Source: Prevotella sp. UBA7782
Lineage (GTDB): Bacteria; Bacteroidota; Bacteroidia; Bacteroidales; Bacteroidaceae
Length of the DNA: 9,446 nucleotides
Assembly: GCA_002480935.1 (NCBI GenBank)
Contig: DLDC01000236.1
Coordinates: 3,173-12,618, forward strand
Direction of reading: 5' to 3'
The notes under the pieces were generated by a model. The model saw only the letters and a program-made list of their open reading frames with translations, searched no databases and was not told the origin of the DNA. Shown here piece by piece: positions 1 to 9,446 of the stretch (positions are counted from its first letter, which is position 1; every line of letters starts with the position of its first letter). The translations under genes were made by a program, and so were the position numbers.

Positions 1-593
1 ACCTCGTGGACCATCTCGGGGTCGAGCGCCGAGGTGGGCTCGTCAAAGAGCATCACGTCGGGGTTCATGGCCAGTGCGCGCGCTATGGCCACGCGCTGCC
101 GTTGCCCACCCGACAGGCTGTCGGGCCATTCGTCAGCCTTGTCGGCCAATCCTATGCGCTGCAAGAGCTGCATGGCCGTGTCTGAAGCTTCCTGCCGTGA
201 CATCTTGCCCAGCGTGACCGGAGCCAGCATAATGTTGCGGCGTATGGTGAGATTGGGAAAGAGATTGAACTGCTGAAACACCATGCCGATGCGCTCGCGC
301 ATCTTGTTGATGTCTATCTCGGGCGATGTTATGTCGGTGCCCTCGAAGTATATGTGTCCGGAGGTGGGCTTCTCCAGCAGGTTGATGCTGCGCAGGAAGG
401 TGGATTTACCACAACCCGACGGACCGATGATGGCTATCACCTCGCCTTGGCGCACGGTGGTGGATATGTCTCTGAGCACGGTGTGGCTGCCGAAAGCCTT
501 GTGCAGATGCTCTATACAGATGAGCGGCTTGCGCCCATCGGCAGGGCTCAGGATGGGCTCAGCGCCCTGATGTGTGTTATCTGATGCGTTCAT
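1..593 (-). CDS. Polar amino acid ABC transporter ATP-binding protein (GlnQ/HisP-like), 3' end outside window
   Basis: Cytoplasmic ATPase that should power the binding protein-permease fusion encoded just upstream. The frame opens with ATG at 593 and runs off the left edge, giving 197 complete codons of a family usually about 240-250 residues long. The nucleotide-binding motifs are all readable: Walker A GPSGCGKST (57-65), Q-loop QQFNLF (107-112), signature LSGGQ (160-164), Walker B VMLFDE (180-185) and D-loop SALD (188-191). The H-loop lies beyond the window. Family homology normally begins near residue 23 (PLICIEHLHKAFG), so the first 20 or so residues are a short extension; I see no better in-frame start. 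The ATG lies 17 bases inside the end of the fusion gene, which suggests translational coupling and equal production of both parts. The family handles glutamine, histidine, arginine and similar solutes; the exact substrate is not readable here. Confidence 0.93.
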   Translation of the reverse strand, partial: MNASDNTHQGAEPILSPADGRKPLICIEHLHKAFGSHTVLRDISTTVRQGEVIAIIGPSGCGKSTFLRSINLLEKPTSGHIYFEGTDITSPEIDINKMRERIGMVFQQFNLFPNLTIRRNIMLAPVTLGKMSRQEASDTAMQLLQRIGLADKADEWPDSLSGGQRQRVAIARALAMNPDVMLFDEPTSALDPEMVHE

Positions 594-2067
594 TGCTTCT
601 TAATTTCTTTTCGAGTGCGCCCACGGCCGACGACAGTGTGAGCACGATGGCCAGGTAGATGAGAGCCACGATGCCCAAGGGCAGCATGGCATCGTAAGTA
701 ATGCTTCGTATGATGTCACTGCCTTTGGTAAGGTCCATAAGCCCTATGTAACCGCTGATAGACGTTTCCTTGAGCAGTGTGATAAGTTCATTGCCTATTG
801 CAGGCAGCACATTCTTGAAGGCTTGTGGCAGGATGACGTGGCGCAATGTCTGCCCGTAGCTGAGTCCCAACGAGCGTCCGGCCTCCAGCTGTCCACGATC
901 TACCGACATAATGCCGCTGCGCACCACCTCGGCAAGATAGGCCGACGAGTTGATGCCAAAGGCCACTACGGCCACAAACACCTTGCTCACATCGGCCGCG
1001 GCAAAGATAACATAGTAGATGATGAGCAGTTGCACCATGGTTGGCGTGCCCCTTATCACCACCAGGAAGAGCTTGCACAGGGCGTTGGCCACTACATAAC
1101 GCCCCGTGCGGTCGTGTGTGGTGCGCACAATGGCGATGAGTGAGCCCAGAAAAAGGGATATGAGAATGGCAAAGAAGGTGATGATGAGGGTGTTGCCCAG
1201 TCCTTGCAGCAAGTAGAGATAGCGGCCGTCTACCAGAAAGTCTTGCCTAAACTTCTGTCCTAACGACTGCGCCGCCTGCCTATGCGCGGCCACCGGAACG
1301 ATGATGACCTGCTTGCTCTGGGCATAGCACTGTGTGAAGCACACGTTCTTCCGGCGGTCGGGGGTCACCGTGAGGGCTGATGCTCCCACGTCGGCCTTGC
1401 CCGTCTGCACGGAGGTGAGCACGGCATCGAAGTTCATATCCTCTACTTGCAGTGTCATGCCCAGCACATCGGCCACGGCCTGCATGATGTCGATGTCTAT
1501 GCCCACGATGCGTCCGTCCTGATAATACTCATAAGGCTTGAAGGTGGCATTGGTGGCCACCACGAGCCTGCCGTTGGGTCTGCCTATGGCTTTGGGCTGA
1601 TAGGCCACGCCCATTCCGCCCTGCACGTGGCGCCGGCGTATGGAGTCGAGCGTGCCATCGTTGGCCAAGAGCCTCAGCGCATGGTTTATCTGCCGTGCCA
1701 GACTCTGCCTGTCGCGGCTCACGCAAAAGGCATAATCGTCTTTGCTGAAAGCCTGGGGCAGCAGTGCCAGACCGTCGTTCTGCGCCACAAAGGCACGCGC
1801 CGGAAGCTCATCTTCTATCACGCAGTCCACCTTGCCTTGCATCAGCGCCTGTATGGCATCGGCCGTCTTGGTGAACCGCTCCACCTGTGTGCCCTCCTTG
1901 TCATGCTCCATGGCCGAAGCCTTTGTGTCAGCCACGGTGCCCAGCTGCACACCTATGCGGCTGCCGGGCAGGTCGGCCTGCGAGCGTACCACCTTTTTGC
2001 GGCCTCCGCAACAGCACAGCACGACGAGCATGCAAAGGCACAACATTGTCTTGATAATGTATCTCAA
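577..2067 (-). CDS. Amino acid ABC transporter: solute-binding domain fused to permease, binding lobes in swapped order
   Basis: Inner-membrane component of a polar amino acid importer, 496 residues from a TTG at 2067. Order: hydrophobic N-terminal signal or anchor (about 8-20, cysteine-rich, with a weak lipobox-like end at C18-C20); solute-binding lobe 2 (about 30-150) with VQLGTVAD (40-47), VIEDELPA (83-90) and the closing helix ending GTLDSIRRR; a linker; solute-binding lobe 1 (about 167-257) with RLVVATNATFKPYEY and TVTPDRR (233-239, R238 matching the carboxylate-binding Arg of GlnH/HisJ); then a permease domain (about 285-490) of roughly five membrane spans with the EAA loop E395-A396...G401...I412-L413-P414 that docks on the ATPase. 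GlnH-type proteins have lobe 1 first, so the lobes are permuted. Start: TTG 2067 gives a basic n-region (R2, K6); ATG at 2046 (residue 8) is the alternative and lacks positive charge. An in-frame stop at 2107-2109 limits extension upstream. Overlaps the ATPase gene by 17 bases. Substrate unknown, probably a polar amino acid. Confidence 0.92.
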   Translation of the reverse strand: MRYIIKTMLCLCMLVVLCCCGGRKKVVRSQADLPGSRIGVQLGTVADTKASAMEHDKEGTQVERFTKTADAIQALMQGKVDCVIEDELPARAFVAQNDGLALLPQAFSKDDYAFCVSRDRQSLARQINHALRLLANDGTLDSIRRRHVQGGMGVAYQPKAIGRPNGRLVVATNATFKPYEYYQDGRIVGIDIDIMQAVADVLGMTLQVEDMNFDAVLTSVQTGKADVGASALTVTPDRRKNVCFTQCYAQSKQVIIVPVAAHRQAAQSLGQKFRQDFLVDGRYLYLLQGLGNTLIITFFAILISLFLGSLIAIVRTTHDRTGRYVVANALCKLFLVVIRGTPTMVQLLIIYYVIFAAADVSKVFVAVVAFGINSSAYLAEVVRSGIMSVDRGQLEAGRSLGLSYGQTLRHVILPQAFKNVLPAIGNELITLLKETSISGYIGLMDLTKGSDIIRSITYDAMLPLGIVALIYLAIVLTLSSAVGALEKKLRSNERIR

Positions 2068-2182: not shown

Positions 2183-2221
2183 AAAAAAAAACGGTTGGTA
2201 CCCTCCTTCAGGCACCAACCG
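2183..2221 (-). terminator. Rho-independent terminator of the SusCD operon
   Basis: Read on the minus strand, an 8-bp perfect stem (CGGTTGGT pairing with ACCAACCG, plus strand 2214-2221 and 2192-2199) has a 14-base loop region. It is followed at once by nine T residues (plus-strand A-run 2183-2191). It starts 23 bases after the susD-like stop codon at 2245. The T-run lies only on the minus-strand exit side, so the terminator acts in that direction. It separates the SusCD unit from the ABC transporter unit. Confidence 0.88.
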
Positions 2222-2244: not shown

Positions 2245-4080
2245 TTAATACAACGGATGCTGCTGACCTTGCAATCCCTTGTTGATGTCAATGATAGAAG
2301 TAGTGTTGAGCGGAAGTATTTCCACCTTGTTCTTCTCCAATCCACGGAAGAGAGAGGTTGTCATCCATGCTTCTTTTGCCGAGATGTTATGATTGCTGTT
2401 GATAAATCCCTTGGTAGCCTGAAACATATTCTGCACGGTATAGCCTTGCTTTGCATAAGCCGCAGAATCAGAACGAGTGATGGCAGTGTAGCTCATGCGC
2501 ACAAGAGGCGATTTAAATCCGCTTGGTGTCTCGGGCTTATAGGCCGCATAGCGGTCTATGTTGGCAAAGCGGCCCTCACCGGCAGCCATCTTCAACAGGT
2601 CGGCCTTGGTCTGCGTAAGTGTTTCATAGAGGATGTTCCATCTCACCAAATCGGTACGGCGCCATCCCTCAAAGCCCAGCTCCAGCTTTCTCTCTTCCTG
2701 AATGGCCTTCAAGAAAGCATCGTGCGCGGTAGGTATGTCGCCCACCTTTGAGGCGTCGCCACCGAAAGCGCGCAGGCGTACTTGGCGAAGTGCGTTGACA
2801 GCTTCGGGCGTAGCGCCATTGTTCAGCTCATTGAGAGCCTCAGCATACATAAGCAACACGTCAGAATATCTGAGCAGAGGAAAGTCTATCTCCCTGACAT
2901 TCACTTTCGCACCCGCATCAGTTTTCCAGTCTACACGAAACTTTCCGATGGTCATACTGGGATAGCCATTCAGCTTTCTGGTGCCCACTTTGTCTTTTGT
3001 TCCGTCATAGCCATAATTGCAAATAGCCACGTCGCGGCGCTGGTCGCCATCAGCAAAGTCGAAGTAATAAACGGGATTGGCTATCATTTGTGGCGCAGCC
3101 TTGCCATACATCGTATTAGTGTGTGAGAAGATGCCGTTGGTGTAACCTACGTTATAGCTGCTCACCTGTGTGCCATACTGGCCCACCTGAAGCATGGTCT
3201 CTTTGTCGAACTTCTTCTCAAGAATGTCTCTCCACACCGTTTCATAAGATGGCAGCAAAGAGTTTTCGCCCCGGTCGATTACTGCCTTGCAGGCATCTGC
3301 CGCAATCTGATAGAGCTGTCTGATGCGCGCTTCATCGCTACGCTTGGCCATCTTTACGGAAGAGGGATCGTAAGTGTTGAGATCCCATCTGAGCGAATAG
3401 CCTGCCGCATAGAGGGCTATACGGGCCAATGTGCCGTAAGCGGCGTTTTTGGTAAAGCGCTCGCTCTCACTTCCGACCGTCTTCTCGCTGGCCCACGACA
3501 GCAGTGACACGGCACGCTGCATATCGGCTATGATATGGTCGTATATGGTGTCACGGCTTGTGCGTGACGAGTAGAAGCTGCTGGCGTCTGAAGTAGGCGT
3601 GGTGATGAAAGGCACATCACCGAAAAAGCGTATCAAATTGAAATAGTTCTCGGCACGTATGGCCAAAGCCTCACCCAACAGATGATTGAGCTTTTTCTGC
3701 TCGGAAGCATCAGTGCTGCTCATGCCCTGCAACTTCTTGATGCACACATTGGCATACTCGATGCCCTTATACATCGCGTTATACAAGCCGGTAGGCGCAT
3801 TAGACGACGTATAGACATAATTAGCTATCTGATTTTTGGAGTTTGTCTCACCCTCGGTAGAGAAGCATTCGTCGGTGCCCATACCGAGCTGATAGAAGAA
3901 CTCGCGGTTGAATGTCTGAGGATAGCACCCCAACACGGCCATCTCTGCCTTGTTGACATCCTCGAAAACCGTTTCACTGTTATACTTGCTTTCTGAAGGC
4001 ATGTCAAGATAATCGCTGCATGAGGCAAGCCCCAACATCATCAGCGCAGACATGCACAGGCATATTATATTCTTTTTCAT
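2245..4080 (-). CDS. SusD/RagB-family outer-membrane nutrient-binding lipoprotein
   Basis: Surface lipoprotein expected to form the lid over the adjacent SusC-like channel and capture the nutrient. It has 611 residues, in the usual size range. A signal peptide (1-20) ends in the lipobox LASC with lipidated C21, followed by the typical SDYLD. The N-terminal SusD-like part contains helical TPR-type segments, including RAENYFNLIRFFGDVPFIT (142-160). The C-terminal SusD domain shows FPLLRYSDVLLMYAEALNE (400-418), NALRQVRLRAF (429-439) and ERKLELGFEGWRRTDLVRW (463-481), all hallmark family blocks. The ATG at 4080 immediately precedes the signal peptide. The gene follows the SusC-like stop by 19 bases and ends just before a terminator, so it is the last gene of a two-gene operon. 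Ligand (glycan, peptide or other) cannot be read from the sequence; there is no neighbouring enzyme to suggest it. Confidence 0.97.
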   Translation of the reverse strand: MKKNIICLCMSALMMLGLASCSDYLDMPSESKYNSETVFEDVNKAEMAVLGCYPQTFNREFFYQLGMGTDECFSTEGETNSKNQIANYVYTSSNAPTGLYNAMYKGIEYANVCIKKLQGMSSTDASEQKKLNHLLGEALAIRAENYFNLIRFFGDVPFITTPTSDASSFYSSRTSRDTIYDHIIADMQRAVSLLSWASEKTVGSESERFTKNAAYGTLARIALYAAGYSLRWDLNTYDPSSVKMAKRSDEARIRQLYQIAADACKAVIDRGENSLLPSYETVWRDILEKKFDKETMLQVGQYGTQVSSYNVGYTNGIFSHTNTMYGKAAPQMIANPVYYFDFADGDQRRDVAICNYGYDGTKDKVGTRKLNGYPSMTIGKFRVDWKTDAGAKVNVREIDFPLLRYSDVLLMYAEALNELNNGATPEAVNALRQVRLRAFGGDASKVGDIPTAHDAFLKAIQEERKLELGFEGWRRTDLVRWNILYETLTQTKADLLKMAAGEGRFANIDRYAAYKPETPSGFKSPLVRMSYTAITRSDSAAYAKQGYTVQNMFQATKGFINSNHNISAKEAWMTTSLFRGLEKNKVEILPLNTTSIIDINKGLQGQQHPLY

Positions 4081-4099
4081 GATTGTTGCTTAATTAAAA

Positions 4100-7000
4100 T
4101 TAGAACGTAAGATTCATGCCAACTACGAAACTCTTTGAACGAGGATAGGCAGAATTGTCTATACCGGGCGTAAGGGCACTGGATGAAGCTGACACTTCAG
4201 GGTCGAAGCCGTCATATCCCGTAATGGTGCAAATGTTATTGAGCGTGGCATACAGTCGCAGGCTCTGCACCTTAACCTTTTGCATCCATGTCTTGGGGAA
4301 GGTATAACCCAAAGTGATGGTGCTCAGTCTGAGGTAGCTGCCGTCTTCTATATAGGTGTCGAGTGGGTCGGATATGGCTATTCTGTTGTCGCTGTGAACG
4401 CTCCACATCTGACTTTGTGCATGCTGATTGGGGTTGAGCTGAGCCAAACGAGCCAAGTCTGTTGTTTCCTTACCGGTGAGCGGATCGATCAAGGTATACC
4501 TGTTAGCCATGGCAGCCAGTGTGTTCTGGTTGGGCAAATAGGGGCCTATATATCGCTGGGTGTTCATGTTGAACACGTCGCCACCCACAGAGAAGTTCAT
4601 GAAGATATTCAGATCAAAGCCTTTGTAGCTGAACGTGTTGCCCAAACCACCGGTAAAATCAGGGTTGGCATTGCCTATCACGGTTCTGTCATCGGTGCTC
4701 CACACGGGATTGCCTTTGGCATCTGTCTGTCCTGCCGTGCACACATACTTCACGTCACCGGGCTTGACAGCGCTTCTGGTGCGTCCTTTCAGAGAAGGCA
4801 CACCATCCTTTAAGGTATATGAACCATCAGCATTTTGCGTAAAGTCGTCGGTGGTATAGACACCCGCAACCTTGTATCCATAGAACTGTCCTAAGGGCTT
4901 TCCCTCTTCTATCTTGAACCACATACGGCTGTCATAGTCCTGTATCATATAATTGTTTTCGCTGTCGCTGCCATACAGGCTTAACACTTTGTTGTGGTTG
5001 AAAGCGATATTAAGATTGGTGTTCCAAGTGAAGTTCTTGGTAGAGATATTGGTAGAATTCAATACAATCTCTACACCTGTGTTGCGTATAGAGGCCAGGT
5101 TCTGATACTGATAAGAATAGCCTGTAGATGTAGGAATGCGGTTTTGAATGAGCAGATTGTCTGACTTGTTGTTGTAATAGTCGATGCTTCCGTTCAGCCT
5201 TCCTTTGAAGAAGCCGAAGTCAAGACCCACATTTAAAGTAGTGGTTTTCTCCCATTTCACCTCGGGATTACCAACCGTTGAACCCGGAACGAGGGTAGGT
5301 ATCACCTCAGAGCCATTGGTATAATAGCCTGCTCCATAGTCCGTGGCATACATATTGTCATCTATATTGTCGTTGCCGGTGGTACCTATACCTACTCTCA
5401 GCTTCAAGTTTGACAGCCAGTCTTTGGTGGGTCGCATCCAAGACTCCTCAGTGATGCGCCATGCAGCACTTGCTGATGGGAACCAACCCCACTTATGCCC
5501 CTTGCCGAACTTAGAGCTGCCATCGGTACGCAGGGTAGCTGTGAGGAGGTATCTTTCGTTCCAGTTGTAAGAAGCTCTGCCGAAGAAAGAAACCAATCCA
5601 CGCTCGCTCTTGCCCGATGCCCAAGAATAAGGAGTAGCCATCGTGACATTGTTCAAGCCGAAATTAGCCTCCGGGAAATTATGATACTCGTTGTTCAGAT
5701 TCATCTTTCCACGGTTGTAGACCTCATGTCCCAACAACACGTTCACGTGATGGAGCCCATACTTGTGCGCCCAGTTCAAGGTGTTGGTGATCTGCCAGGT
5801 AGATTGCTCGGCGTTGTTTCTGTATCCATAAGGGCCGCCATTGTTCTTTGCGGCACGTGTATAGCCCTTATCCCAATAGTCGGCACGCGCCTGCTGCCAC
5901 GTATAACTGTAGGCAGTGCGCCAGGTAAAGTCTTTCAGAAAGTCGAACTCTATACCTGCGTTCATCGTCCAGAGCCTTGTGCGCTTGGTATTATCTATAC
6001 TCTCGTTACTTAACAGCGGATTTTCTATATCATATTGAGAGTCGATAGACATCATGTCTTCAGAGATATCCTCGCCTAACATCTGCTCGTCTGTGAATCG
6101 GGCACCACCCGTCGCAGGCTGAAGAATAATGTTTTTGAGTGAGCCTGAGAGTGAACCGCCGCCCTCAAGTTTTGTGTTCTGAAAGCTCGTTGCAAAGTCA
6201 AAGCGCACGCCTTTCCACAACTCATGATTAAGTTTCAGGCGGATAGAATTCTTGTCAACGCCGTGCTTAGACAGTATACCGTCCTCACCCGTATAATTAT
6301 ATGATAGCAAATATTTGGTTTTATCATTTCCTCCGCTTATGCTCAGATTGTGATTCATCGACGTGCCTGTGCCTCCGAACACCTCATCTTGCCAGTCTAT
6401 GCCCTTACGGTTGGCATACATGTCGTTAATTCTGCTATAAGCACCTGTGTAAAAGTCGGCTGACGACACGTCACCACCATAGAAACTGGCAAAATTAGCC
6501 TCGTTTCCAGCCAGTGTCTGAAGCTCATACTCATACTTAACGTAATCGAGCGTACCCAATACATCCAACTTCTTGCCCAGCCAGTTCCAGCTATAATAAG
6601 TGTTATAGTTAACTTGTGTCTTTCCTTCCTTGGCACTCTTGGTGGTTATGATGATTACTCCGTTGGCACCTCTTGCACCATAAATGGCCGTAGCCGAGGC
6701 ATCCTTCATGATGTCGATGGTCTCTATATCGTTGATGTCTATCTGCTGCAAAGCATTCTCCATCTCAAAACCATCTACGATATACAATGGTGTGGTGCTC
6801 TGAGTGATAGATGTTCCGCCACGAACCGTTATGTTTACATCGGCACCGGGCGCTCCGCTCTGCGACACGATGTTCACACCGGCAGCCTTACCCTGCAGTG
6901 CTTCTGCGGCAGTGGCCACAGGCCTGGAAGCCAAGTCTTTGCCTCCTACGCTCACGGTACTACCTGTCAGGTCAGCCTTACGAACCTTGGCATAACCTAT

Positions 7001-7330
7001 TGCCACAACTTCGTCAAGCATTTGGGCATCTTCCTTAAGCACACAGTCGATGTTTGTGCGATTCTGAACATTCACCATCAGGTCTGAAAAGCCCACATAG
7101 GTAATCTTCAGCTGCTTTGTTCCATCTGGCACTTGAATCTTAAACTTACCGTCAATGTCGGTTACCGCTCCTGCCTTCGTGCCGGGTGCAGTTACTGTAG
7201 CGCCGATAATCTCAGTGCCTTTCGCGTCTTTCACTGTACCAAATATCGTATGAGTCTGCGCTATACCGCTCAGACAGCACAGCAGCATCACCAACAATAC
7301 AAGGTAACGTTTCTTTAGTTTGTTGTTCAT
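4100..7330 (-). CDS. SusC/RagA-family TonB-dependent outer-membrane transporter
   Basis: Outer-membrane active importer energised by TonB-ExbBD; partner of the SusD-like lipoprotein downstream. It has 1076 residues. A signal peptide (about 1-24) is followed by a carboxypeptidase-regulatory-like beta-sandwich (about 28-100, with GTVKDAKGTEIIGATV), then the TonB-box-like DEVVAIGY (106-113). The plug domain (about 118-230) contains the family blocks GKAAGVNI, VRGGTSI, PLYIVDGFE and MKDASATAIYGARGANG. The rest is a beta-barrel ending in a terminal phenylalanine (VVGMNLTF), the usual barrel-assembly signal. There is no N-terminal STN signalling domain, so control through an anti-sigma factor is not expected. 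Full length, with no frameshift seen. The ATG at 7330 directly precedes the basic n-region NNKLKKR. Substrate unknown: the family imports glycans, peptides and other large solutes. Confidence 0.97.
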   Translation of the reverse strand: MNNKLKKRYLVLLVMLLCCLSGIAQTHTIFGTVKDAKGTEIIGATVTAPGTKAGAVTDIDGKFKIQVPDGTKQLKITYVGFSDLMVNVQNRTNIDCVLKEDAQMLDEVVAIGYAKVRKADLTGSTVSVGGKDLASRPVATAAEALQGKAAGVNIVSQSGAPGADVNITVRGGTSITQSTTPLYIVDGFEMENALQQIDINDIETIDIMKDASATAIYGARGANGVIIITTKSAKEGKTQVNYNTYYSWNWLGKKLDVLGTLDYVKYEYELQTLAGNEANFASFYGGDVSSADFYTGAYSRINDMYANRKGIDWQDEVFGGTGTSMNHNLSISGGNDKTKYLLSYNYTGEDGILSKHGVDKNSIRLKLNHELWKGVRFDFATSFQNTKLEGGGSLSGSLKNIILQPATGGARFTDEQMLGEDISEDMMSIDSQYDIENPLLSNESIDNTKRTRLWTMNAGIEFDFLKDFTWRTAYSYTWQQARADYWDKGYTRAAKNNGGPYGYRNNAEQSTWQITNTLNWAHKYGLHHVNVLLGHEVYNRGKMNLNNEYHNFPEANFGLNNVTMATPYSWASGKSERGLVSFFGRASYNWNERYLLTATLRTDGSSKFGKGHKWGWFPSASAAWRITEESWMRPTKDWLSNLKLRVGIGTTGNDNIDDNMYATDYGAGYYTNGSEVIPTLVPGSTVGNPEVKWEKTTTLNVGLDFGFFKGRLNGSIDYYNNKSDNLLIQNRIPTSTGYSYQYQNLASIRNTGVEIVLNSTNISTKNFTWNTNLNIAFNHNKVLSLYGSDSENNYMIQDYDSRMWFKIEEGKPLGQFYGYKVAGVYTTDDFTQNADGSYTLKDGVPSLKGRTRSAVKPGDVKYVCTAGQTDAKGNPVWSTDDRTVIGNANPDFTGGLGNTFSYKGFDLNIFMNFSVGGDVFNMNTQRYIGPYLPNQNTLAAMANRYTLIDPLTGKETTDLARLAQLNPNQHAQSQMWSVHSDNRIAISDPLDTYIEDGSYLRLSTITLGYTFPKTWMQKVKVQSLRLYATLNNICTITGYDGFDPEVSASSSALTPGIDNSAYPRSKSFVVGMNLTF

Positions 7331-7591: not shown

Positions 7592-8656
7592 TTACTTATT
7601 CTCTGCACTCTCATTAAAGGCAGCCTCCTCAGCCGCGGCGATGATTTCTTCACGCGAGGGAGGCTCTTTGGCTGAGATGTCAGACAGGTCGAACTCGTCG
7701 GCATCATGCTTCTTACCGCCACCCACAGGCGTTGTCTTCGTGTGGACAGGCTCTGGTGTGTCGCTAAACACCTCTGTCTTGAAGGCTGTCTCGTGCTTCT
7801 CTTCCTGAGGCTTGCTGCCTACAATGAAATCGTTTTGTGGCTCCATTGTGGGCACCAAGTCCACCGGCTCTTCCTCCATCTTTGTTCTGTTGCCCTTAGC
7901 GGCAAACACTTGGTCGATGAATTGTGGCTCGCGACGCAGCTTTTGCAGCGTTAGCTTGGCTGCCTGTTGCTGACTTTCCTTCTTTGAGTAGCCTTTTCCC
8001 TGACCGCCTTTAAGGTCCTCTATGATTACCTGATAGTGAAACAAAGGGCTTCCGCTCTCATCTTGCTTCTGATCGAGCATCTCAAAGCTCACGTTCACTC
8101 TGTTTTTCTGACTCCACTCCAACAGTTTTGACTTGAAGTTTACCTCTTTGTAAGCCACCTTGTCTATGTTGATGAGCTCACCCAGGATGCGTTGCTTCAT
8201 GAAGAACATGCAGGCATCGTAGCCTCTGTCGAGGTATAACGCGCCCACAAGCGCCTCGAAGGCGTTGCCACCCATATAGCTGTTGTGTGACGAGCTGTGC
8301 CCGCTGGAGAGCACAAGGTTGGTTATTCCCATCTCATCGGCCAGGCGGTTGAGCGTCTCGCGCTGCACAAGCTTGGAGCGGGTATTGGTGAGAAAGCCCT
8401 CGCGCTTGCCGGGAAAGTGCTCATAAACGATATCACCTACGATGGCATCCAGTATGGCATCTCCCAGAAACTCAAGTCTCTCATTATTCACGGGTCGCCC
8501 TTTAGCGTTGCGCCGTGCCACACTCTTGTGCATGAGGGCCAGCTTATAGTAGCTGATGTTGTGGGGATAGAGACCTATGACATGATACAAAGAAGAATAA
8601 AGCTCCTTTTCCTTGCGGAAAGGGAGCCTTATCTTATCGAAAAAATTAATCAACAT
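7592..8656 (-). CDS. rnc: Ribonuclease III with long C-terminal tail
   Basis: Double-strand-specific endoribonuclease for rRNA and mRNA processing in the cytoplasm; acts as a dimer with Mg2+. The RNase III catalytic domain (about 20-160) carries the signature [14 protein letters not shown] (58-71), giving E59, E62 and D66, and the second metal-ligand block [15 protein letters not shown] (129-143) with E134. The position matching E. coli D114 is N131, a substitution I believe is usual in Bacteroidetes. A double-stranded RNA-binding domain (about 171-240) includes [16 protein letters not shown]. Residues about 245-354 form an extra charged, proline-containing, low-complexity tail, so the protein is longer than the 226-residue E. 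coli enzyme. The ATG at 8656 lies 11 bases inside the end of fabF, suggesting coupled translation. Function by homology is secure; the role of the tail is unknown. Confidence 0.96.
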
Positions 8657-9446
8657 ACTTTTTGAAAATAACGCATGCGTTATGTCCGCCGAACCCGAAG
8701 GTATTGCTAAGTGCTACACGCACCTCACGCTTCTGTGCTTTGTTGAACGTGAAGTTCATGTTATAGTCTAGCTCGGGATCGTCATCGCCTTCCACATGAT
8801 TGATGGTAGGAGGAACAACATCGTTCTTCACAGCCAGCACGCAGGCCATTGCCTCAACGGCACCGGCGGCACCCAGGAGGTGACCTGTCATACTCTTGGT
8901 AGACGAAATGTTGAGTTTATAAGCATGATCGCCGAATACATCCTTGATGGCTTTGGCCTCTGAGATGTCGCCAACGTGAGTTGACGTGCCGTGAACATTG
9001 ATGTAATCGATGTCTTCAGGCTTCAGACCGGCGTCGTCCAGGGCAGCTTGCATAACGAGCTTGGCTCCCAGACCCTCCGGATGGCTTGCCGTGATGTGGT
9101 AAGCGTCGGCACTCTCGCCCTCACCCACCATCTCTGCGTATATCTTGGCGCCACGAGCCTTTGCGTGCTCAAGGTCTTCCAGGATAAGGCAACCAGCACC
9201 TTCGCCCATCACAAAGCCGTCTCGGCTGGCCGAGAAGGGGCGTGACGCGTGCTCAGGGTCGTCGTTGCGTGTGGAGAGAGCCTTCATAGAGTTGAAGCCA
9301 CCCACACCGCAGGCGCATATAGCGCTCTCTGCACCACCTGCCACAATCATGTCGGCCTTGCCCAAACGTATGAGGTTGAAGGCATCAGCCAGGGCGTTGC
9401 TCGATGAAGCGCACGCTGACGTGGTGGCATAGTTAGGTCCATGGAA
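8646..9446 (-). CDS. fabF: Beta-ketoacyl-ACP synthase II (FabF), 5' end outside window
   Basis: Condensing enzyme of type II fatty acid synthesis: extends acyl chains using malonyl-ACP in the cytoplasm. The frame is open to the right edge and gives the last 266 residues. The active-site cysteine is visible in [10 protein letters not shown] (window residue C12), with the two catalytic histidines in NVHGTST (H152) and [10 protein letters not shown] (H189). The spacings C to H of 140 and 177 equal those of E. coli FabF (C163, H303, H340), so about 151 N-terminal residues lie outside the window and the whole protein should be about 417 long, normal for FabF. The C-terminal gate block [16 protein letters not shown] is intact. 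It overlaps rnc by 11 bases. In this phylum an acyl carrier protein gene (acpP) commonly precedes fabF, but that cannot be seen here. Confidence 0.96.

Follow-up and report, generated by a model that had tools for sequence, protein, structure and literature searches.

Binding proteins of the GlnH/HisJ type place lobe 1 ahead of lobe 2 in the chain, and a gene in the 9,446-nucleotide stretch of Prevotella sp. UBA7782 DNA analysed here (the window) encodes the two in the opposite order, which raises the questions of whether such a chain still makes one amino-acid trap and how often lobe order has changed in the family to which it belongs. The gene has the reversed order in an open frame, a predicted single domain, kept contact residues and a conserved neighbourhood, and we consider it very likely that it encodes a permuted, single-trap importer domain from a family with repeated changes of lobe order and at least four cut points. 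The importer is laid out as follows:

577..2067, minus strand: fused binding protein/permease of 496 residues, TTG start, above the cut-offs of the SBP_bac_3 and BPD_transp_1 profiles
2008..2067, minus strand: signal peptide, lipoprotein-like in sequence, with a hydrophobic stretch at residues 4-22 and cysteines at residues 18-20
1624..1986, minus strand: lobe 2 unit (L2), residues 28-148, which comes second in ordinary relatives, with contact motifs GVQLGT and VIED
1576..1623, minus strand: joining linker, residues 149-164, between old C-terminus and old N-terminus (alignment A1)
1294..1575, minus strand: lobe 1 unit (L1), residues 165-258, which comes first in ordinary relatives (sequence and structure matches)
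1213..1293, minus strand: putative tether, residues 259-285, linking the new C-terminus with the first membrane helix
598..1212, minus strand: permease domain of the polar amino-acid type, residues 286-490 (TIGR01726, 4yms_D)
3..593, minus strand: GlnQ-type ATPase frame, running off the window and overlapping the permease 3' end by 17 bases

The frame at 577-2067 (-) runs uninterrupted for 496 residues in the order lobe 2, linker, lobe 1 and GlnP-type permease; an uninterrupted frame with lobe 2 ahead of lobe 1 was what a first-pass annotation had held (its interval, 1290-1990, spans the two lobes); that annotation had the layout of the lobes right and placed their borders a few positions off, the linker being 16 residues long. 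With SBP_bac_3 (PF00497) the protein scores 107.3 bits against a cut-off of 26.4, over residues 168-262 only: the Pfam model covers just the lobe 1 half, so the swapped order is missed in annotation. The permease domain is matched by BPD_transp_1 (71 bits, above its cut-off), by TIGR01726 (HEQRo_perm_3TM, a polar amino-acid importer permease; 61.4 bits, cut-off 42.2) and, in a PDB search, by 4yms_D (157.8 bits); with the GlnP equivalog (PRK09494, NF007028) the protein reaches 130.2 bits, below the cut-off of 303. LCCC is a poor lipobox, and two relatives (P0012, P0110) have LVGC and AAAC-type runs; judging from its sequence, the window protein is secreted and probably lipid-anchored. By a motif and length test, L001, L002 and L072 are the only ones of 80 related loci to lack an ATPase frame beside the permease, which leaves 77 with one.

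The reversal appears on comparison with ordinary relatives. In a PDB search, residues 9-103 of AncQR (4zv1) matched residues 165-258 of the query (62.9 bits) and residues 109-228 matched residues 27-145 (60.0 bits), so the order is reversed. Likewise, a profile of 70 ordinary-order rows, some of them one gene fetched twice, gave two matches in reversed order on the unaltered domain (116.2 and 95.8 bits) and, once the lobes had been re-ordered, a single match of 221.1 bits over profile positions 2-216, the top score among 200 shuffles being 5.6. Each lobe was matched once, as had been claimed from the letters, and two incomplete domains in tandem are thereby ruled out. A frameshift or assembly artefact was rejected as well, since the frame is open and the L2-L1-permease arrangement recurs: in a set of 121 related proteins, made up of the window protein and the top 120 among 3174 matches, 86 have it, 34 others read L2-L1-L2-L1-permease and one is without lobe 2. 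The amino-acid contact positions are kept, among them the GVQLGT and VIED motifs of lobe 2 that had been picked out at first reading, and an arginine and an aspartate presumably have the contact roles that they have in GlnBP.

Of two traits of SBP_bac_3 proteins, lobe 1 ahead of lobe 2 in the chain is absent from the window protein, and a two-lobed fold with one ligand cleft is present in the predicted structure only. The AlphaFold2 model of the domain is a single compact, two-lobed body (pLDDT 95.1, pTM 0.89), and this confident model, the reversed matches, the re-ordering control and the kept motifs together bear out the central claim of the first-pass annotation, that of a circularly permuted GlnH/HisJ-type domain. 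Residues 142-231 of the model (lobe 1) align with 6y16 over 90 residues (rmsd 1.4, 38% identity), and the TM-scores of 0.32-0.50 returned by Foldseek, which aligns in sequence order, are expected of a permutation, yet lend it no independent support. Among solved structures, none of permuted order was recognised by sequence in the SBP_bac_3 family. In ordinary relatives the C-terminal helices of the "lobe 2" piece pack on lobe 1, so this piece is a sequence unit and not exactly one lobe.

The single chain would thus fold into one ordinary two-lobed trap with its ends at the lobe-lobe hinge, and with one covalent crossing between the lobes, not two. A putative amino acid held between the lobes would pass to a permease dimer powered by the ATPase encoded alongside; an ordinary amino-acid trap feeding its own permease is, from sequence and model, the most likely identity of the protein. 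Lobe 2 could instead pair with the partner chain's lobe 1 in the permease dimer. Permeases of the GlnP-type family act as dimers, and a linker of 16 residues could permit such an exchange, but the single chain was modelled with confidence as a compact body, the C- and N-termini of ordinary relatives lie close to each other, and same-order proteins with no permease domain are common. Because the L2-L1 unit is found both free-standing and in tandem, pairing across subunits is unnecessary, and we regard it as very improbable.

Across 80 genome loci the L2-L1 unit lies within a fused ORF in 50 cases and stands free in 28, and 2 ORFs are tandem fusions; at L009, lobe 2 extends to the contig start. 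Of the free-standing ORFs, 27 adjoin a separate permease ORF and one (L047) adjoins a fused copy. A protein search with the domain alone, which takes in proteins of 0.55-1.75 times its length, gave 1567 matches. Of the best 120, 104 are free-standing L2-L1 proteins of 243-322 residues, 87 of which have a lipobox-like motif; the rest are 7 L2-L1-L2 and 3 L1-L2-L1 proteins, 5 partly fused ones and a single case of lobe 2 by itself. The existence of these copies argues against a domain that works only across subunits, a reading that the first-pass annotation had set against its own.

The genome surveys relied on profile A1, which derives from permuted proteins, and in each genome the top candidates alone were scored; the counts are therefore minimum values with a bias towards the close family. 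The best match of the window protein is in Hallella mizrahii (G001; L001), at 83% identity. This organism's phylum gave matches in 32 of 296 genomes at E<=1e-30, and the best loci of 30 of these 32 all had L2-L1 units, 29 of them in a divergent branch that has the window's lobe order in other Bacteroidota; two L2-L1 units stand ahead of the permease at L104, L105, L107 and L110. An early suggestion that the arrangement may be widespread in Bacteroidetes has to be amended, with matches in 5 of 201 genomes of the Hallella mizrahii family, four of them divergent, against at least 55 of 250 genomes in the family of Lachnospira pectinoschiza (G004) at the stricter E<=1e-60. In the latter family, 58 of 60 match rows cover both lobes in one stretch, and all five loci inspected are free-standing L2-L1. 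In its phylum 49 of 299 genomes matched, and 30 inspected loci were permuted in 11 cases, ordinary in 18 and undecided in 1, with 19 further genomes outside the inspection. The phylum of G007 (labelled Alphaproteobacteria) gave 2 matches in 249 genomes, G007 itself and L214; the latter, a candidate permuted case, is actually three neighbouring ordinary-order genes. Of all groups in the sample, Lachnospira's family is where the close family is commonest; around Prevotella it is patchy.

Some loci carry larger assemblies. In the Hallella mizrahii phylum, open frames of 1001-1058 residues at L106, L108, L115 and L116 hold three permuted binding domains each, with the frame of a free-standing permuted binding protein just upstream, and these loci end before a permease is reached. 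From the Hallella mizrahii (G001) family come L207:670-3480 (+) and L208:1-3006 (-), apparently whole amino-acid ABC importers in single polypeptides, laid out as permease, extra membrane helix, permuted binding domain(s) (one in L207, two in L208), membrane helix and ABC ATPase; L208 is truncated where its locus ends.

A survey of homologues found the same lobe order in relatives and showed further cut points beyond the single one that the first-pass annotation had seen. At least four occur in one sequence family: one coincides with the hinge, another lies about 8 residues further along, and two fall inside lobe 2. For trees, 253 units were brought to 117 rows in order-normalised alignments, leaving out L143 (contig end, order undecided), L170, L171 and L187 (cut), near-copies and any unit aligned over fewer than 170 residues; a 113-row tree was made after removal of L096, L097 and L208 as long branches, and a careful tree from 56 rows hand-picked from the 117. 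The 117-row quick tree and the careful tree require 8 changes each among five order states, and the two single-lobe trees, which have few columns, poor resolution and, for lobe 1, an unsettled bootstrap, require 9 each. The starred branches of the careful tree force just 2 changes for the hinge-cut group. The trees are unrooted, and gains are not separable from reversions in them; four permuted orders and an ordinary one require at least four changes, and the results of AU tests point to more.

These tests used the 56 rows, and their groups were defined once the tree had been inspected. They rejected a single clade for the 22 hinge-cut rows (p 1.6e-8), for the close and Bacteroidota branches together (p 0.002), for the close branch with L199 (p 0.022) and for the close branch with L134 (p 4e-47). 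The fourth and deepest cut type as one clade was not rejected (p 0.77), and with 113 rows a tree that keeps the deepest-cut proteins together beats the free quick tree by 20 log units; the free quick tree is therefore not optimal, and the 8 changes counted on it overstate the number at least by those due to the splitting of this group. The fourth cut may have arisen once. A single ancient permutation could also underlie all the hinge-cut proteins, the ordinary relatives nested among them being reversions or tree errors, and the strong clustering of lobe order on the tree, the unrooted counts and the few changes forced by starred branches fit such a history. It is, however, unlikely in view of the rejection of one hinge-cut clade (on chosen rows and post hoc groups), the further cut points, and an operon slot that one hinge-cut protein has in common with an ordinary-order relative.

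The change of lobe order in this slot is probably recent. L134 (G383) is hinge-cut and L216 (G419, drawn among G383's relatives) has the ordinary order, and the two have DNA in common on both sides of the gene, downstream permease included; the proteins are 78% identical in lobe 2, 77% in lobe 1 and 75% in the permease. The L134 chain runs through the lobe 2 unit to the ordinary C-terminus, continues for about 15 added residues and enters the ordinary N-terminal strand, with both new ends at the hinge. The joining linker, which sits at the same place in the 83-row alignment A1, is the least constrained part in this comparison. Among 41 genomes searched, 7 matched and the other 6 have the ordinary order, so that, with the L134 order seen in one of seven, misassembly is formally possible. 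Recombination of lobe 2 and lobe 1 from separate binding proteins might give the same order, as the GlnP tandem 6h30 holds an L2-L1 succession across two ordinary domains and the single-lobe trees are poorly resolved, but those trees, with equal numbers of changes, place the window protein, L134, L199 and L182 near similar neighbours, and the lobes and permease of L134 are equally near L216; we find different parents for the halves distinctly unlikely.

Permutation of a single parent through duplication is the most likely origin. A tandem or fused L1-L2-L1-L2 would be trimmed at both ends to give L2-L1, and trimming at different points would yield each of the four cuts. A fused ordinary tandem exists (L140, L1-L2-L1-L2-permease), as do runs of neighbouring ordinary genes (L214), and the duplication route therefore fits best. 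Among the proteins classified there was no undoubted duplication intermediate. Proteins of three lobes, either L1-L2-L1 or L2-L1-L2, were also found (P0125, P0130, P0135, P0126, P0129, P0132, P0133, P0134, P0137, P0166); as candidate intermediates they were set aside as possible chimaeras, because several have long identical blocks with different flanks, which reflect either recombination between neighbours or assembly chimaeras.

The amino-acid binders of gut Clostridia and Bacteroidota are probably a natural permutation series, with at least four cuts, several of them independent and one recent in a conserved operon, in which the trap tolerates new ends at the hinge or inside lobe 2 while serving an importer. 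If this is true, lobe order is an evolving trait and not a fixed property of the fold. A permuted and an ordinary protein in one operon slot (about 77% identity), together with four cuts in one family, make direct tests possible: of the part that the second covalent hinge crossing plays in opening, closing and ligand release, of the stepwise course of permutation, and of which loops tolerate new ends, which would help biosensor design.

To our knowledge, natural circular permutations are mostly old events between distant proteins. The engineered FRET-sensor permutants attributed to Okada (2009) and Clifton (2017) reportedly show that a permuted binding protein still works as a sensor; those are man-made, whereas the permutations in the window family are natural. 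In GlnPQ, the binding domains are fused to the permease. The GlnPQ importers of Lactococcus and Enterococcus (6h30, 4kqp) are sequence relatives that, like the window importer, have the binding domain(s) ahead of the same permease type and a separate ATPase, but the GlnP domains (6h30) have the ordinary lobe order and the window-type units have lobe 2 first. TmArgBP (38% identical to window lobe 1), AncQR, GlnH and HisJ share the SBP_bac_3 family and contact motifs with the window protein and keep the ordinary order.

Precedents lie in other families. OpuAC of Bacillus subtilis (2b4l) and ProX are betaine binders permuted relative to each other (PMC2395249), and form a distant pair, less than 24% identical, whereas the window family has several cuts inside one family. 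The window domain has a predicted two-lobed fold in the same chain order as the OpuAC-type permuted binders, with no PF04069 (OpuAC-type) match in the protein at E<=0.01; PMC2861598, on OpuAC, has no word starting "permut". Excerpts of PMC4990184 describe Tp0684 (MglB-2) of Treponema pallidum as a natural circular permutation of a lipoprotein binder with Gram-positive relatives, a type I glucose binder with a single arrangement and a proposed "Type Ic"; the window family, in contrast, is SBP_bac_3 with at least four cut points. Tp0684-type entries are lacking among the 50 structure matches listed, an absence that does not exclude a permuted type I fold. The excerpts of PMC3779223, PMC3454389, PMC8666671 and PMC7683729 hold nothing on natural permutation in SBP_bac_3-type amino-acid binders, and searches of open-licence full text gave no report of natural permutation in these binders, nor of repeated re-cutting inside one amino-acid-binding family. 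Permuted binding proteins were thus already known (OpuAC/ProX; Tp0684), and what appears new, from these searches, is the repeated re-cutting.

In the rest of the window (2183-2220 and 2245-7330 (-)), a terminator-like hairpin with a T run separates the importer from an upstream pair of SusD-like and SusC-like (TonB-dependent receptor) genes. Within 7592-9446 (-) lie a ribonuclease III with a long acidic-rich C-terminal extension and a second frame, running off the window, which resembles a ketoacyl synthase.
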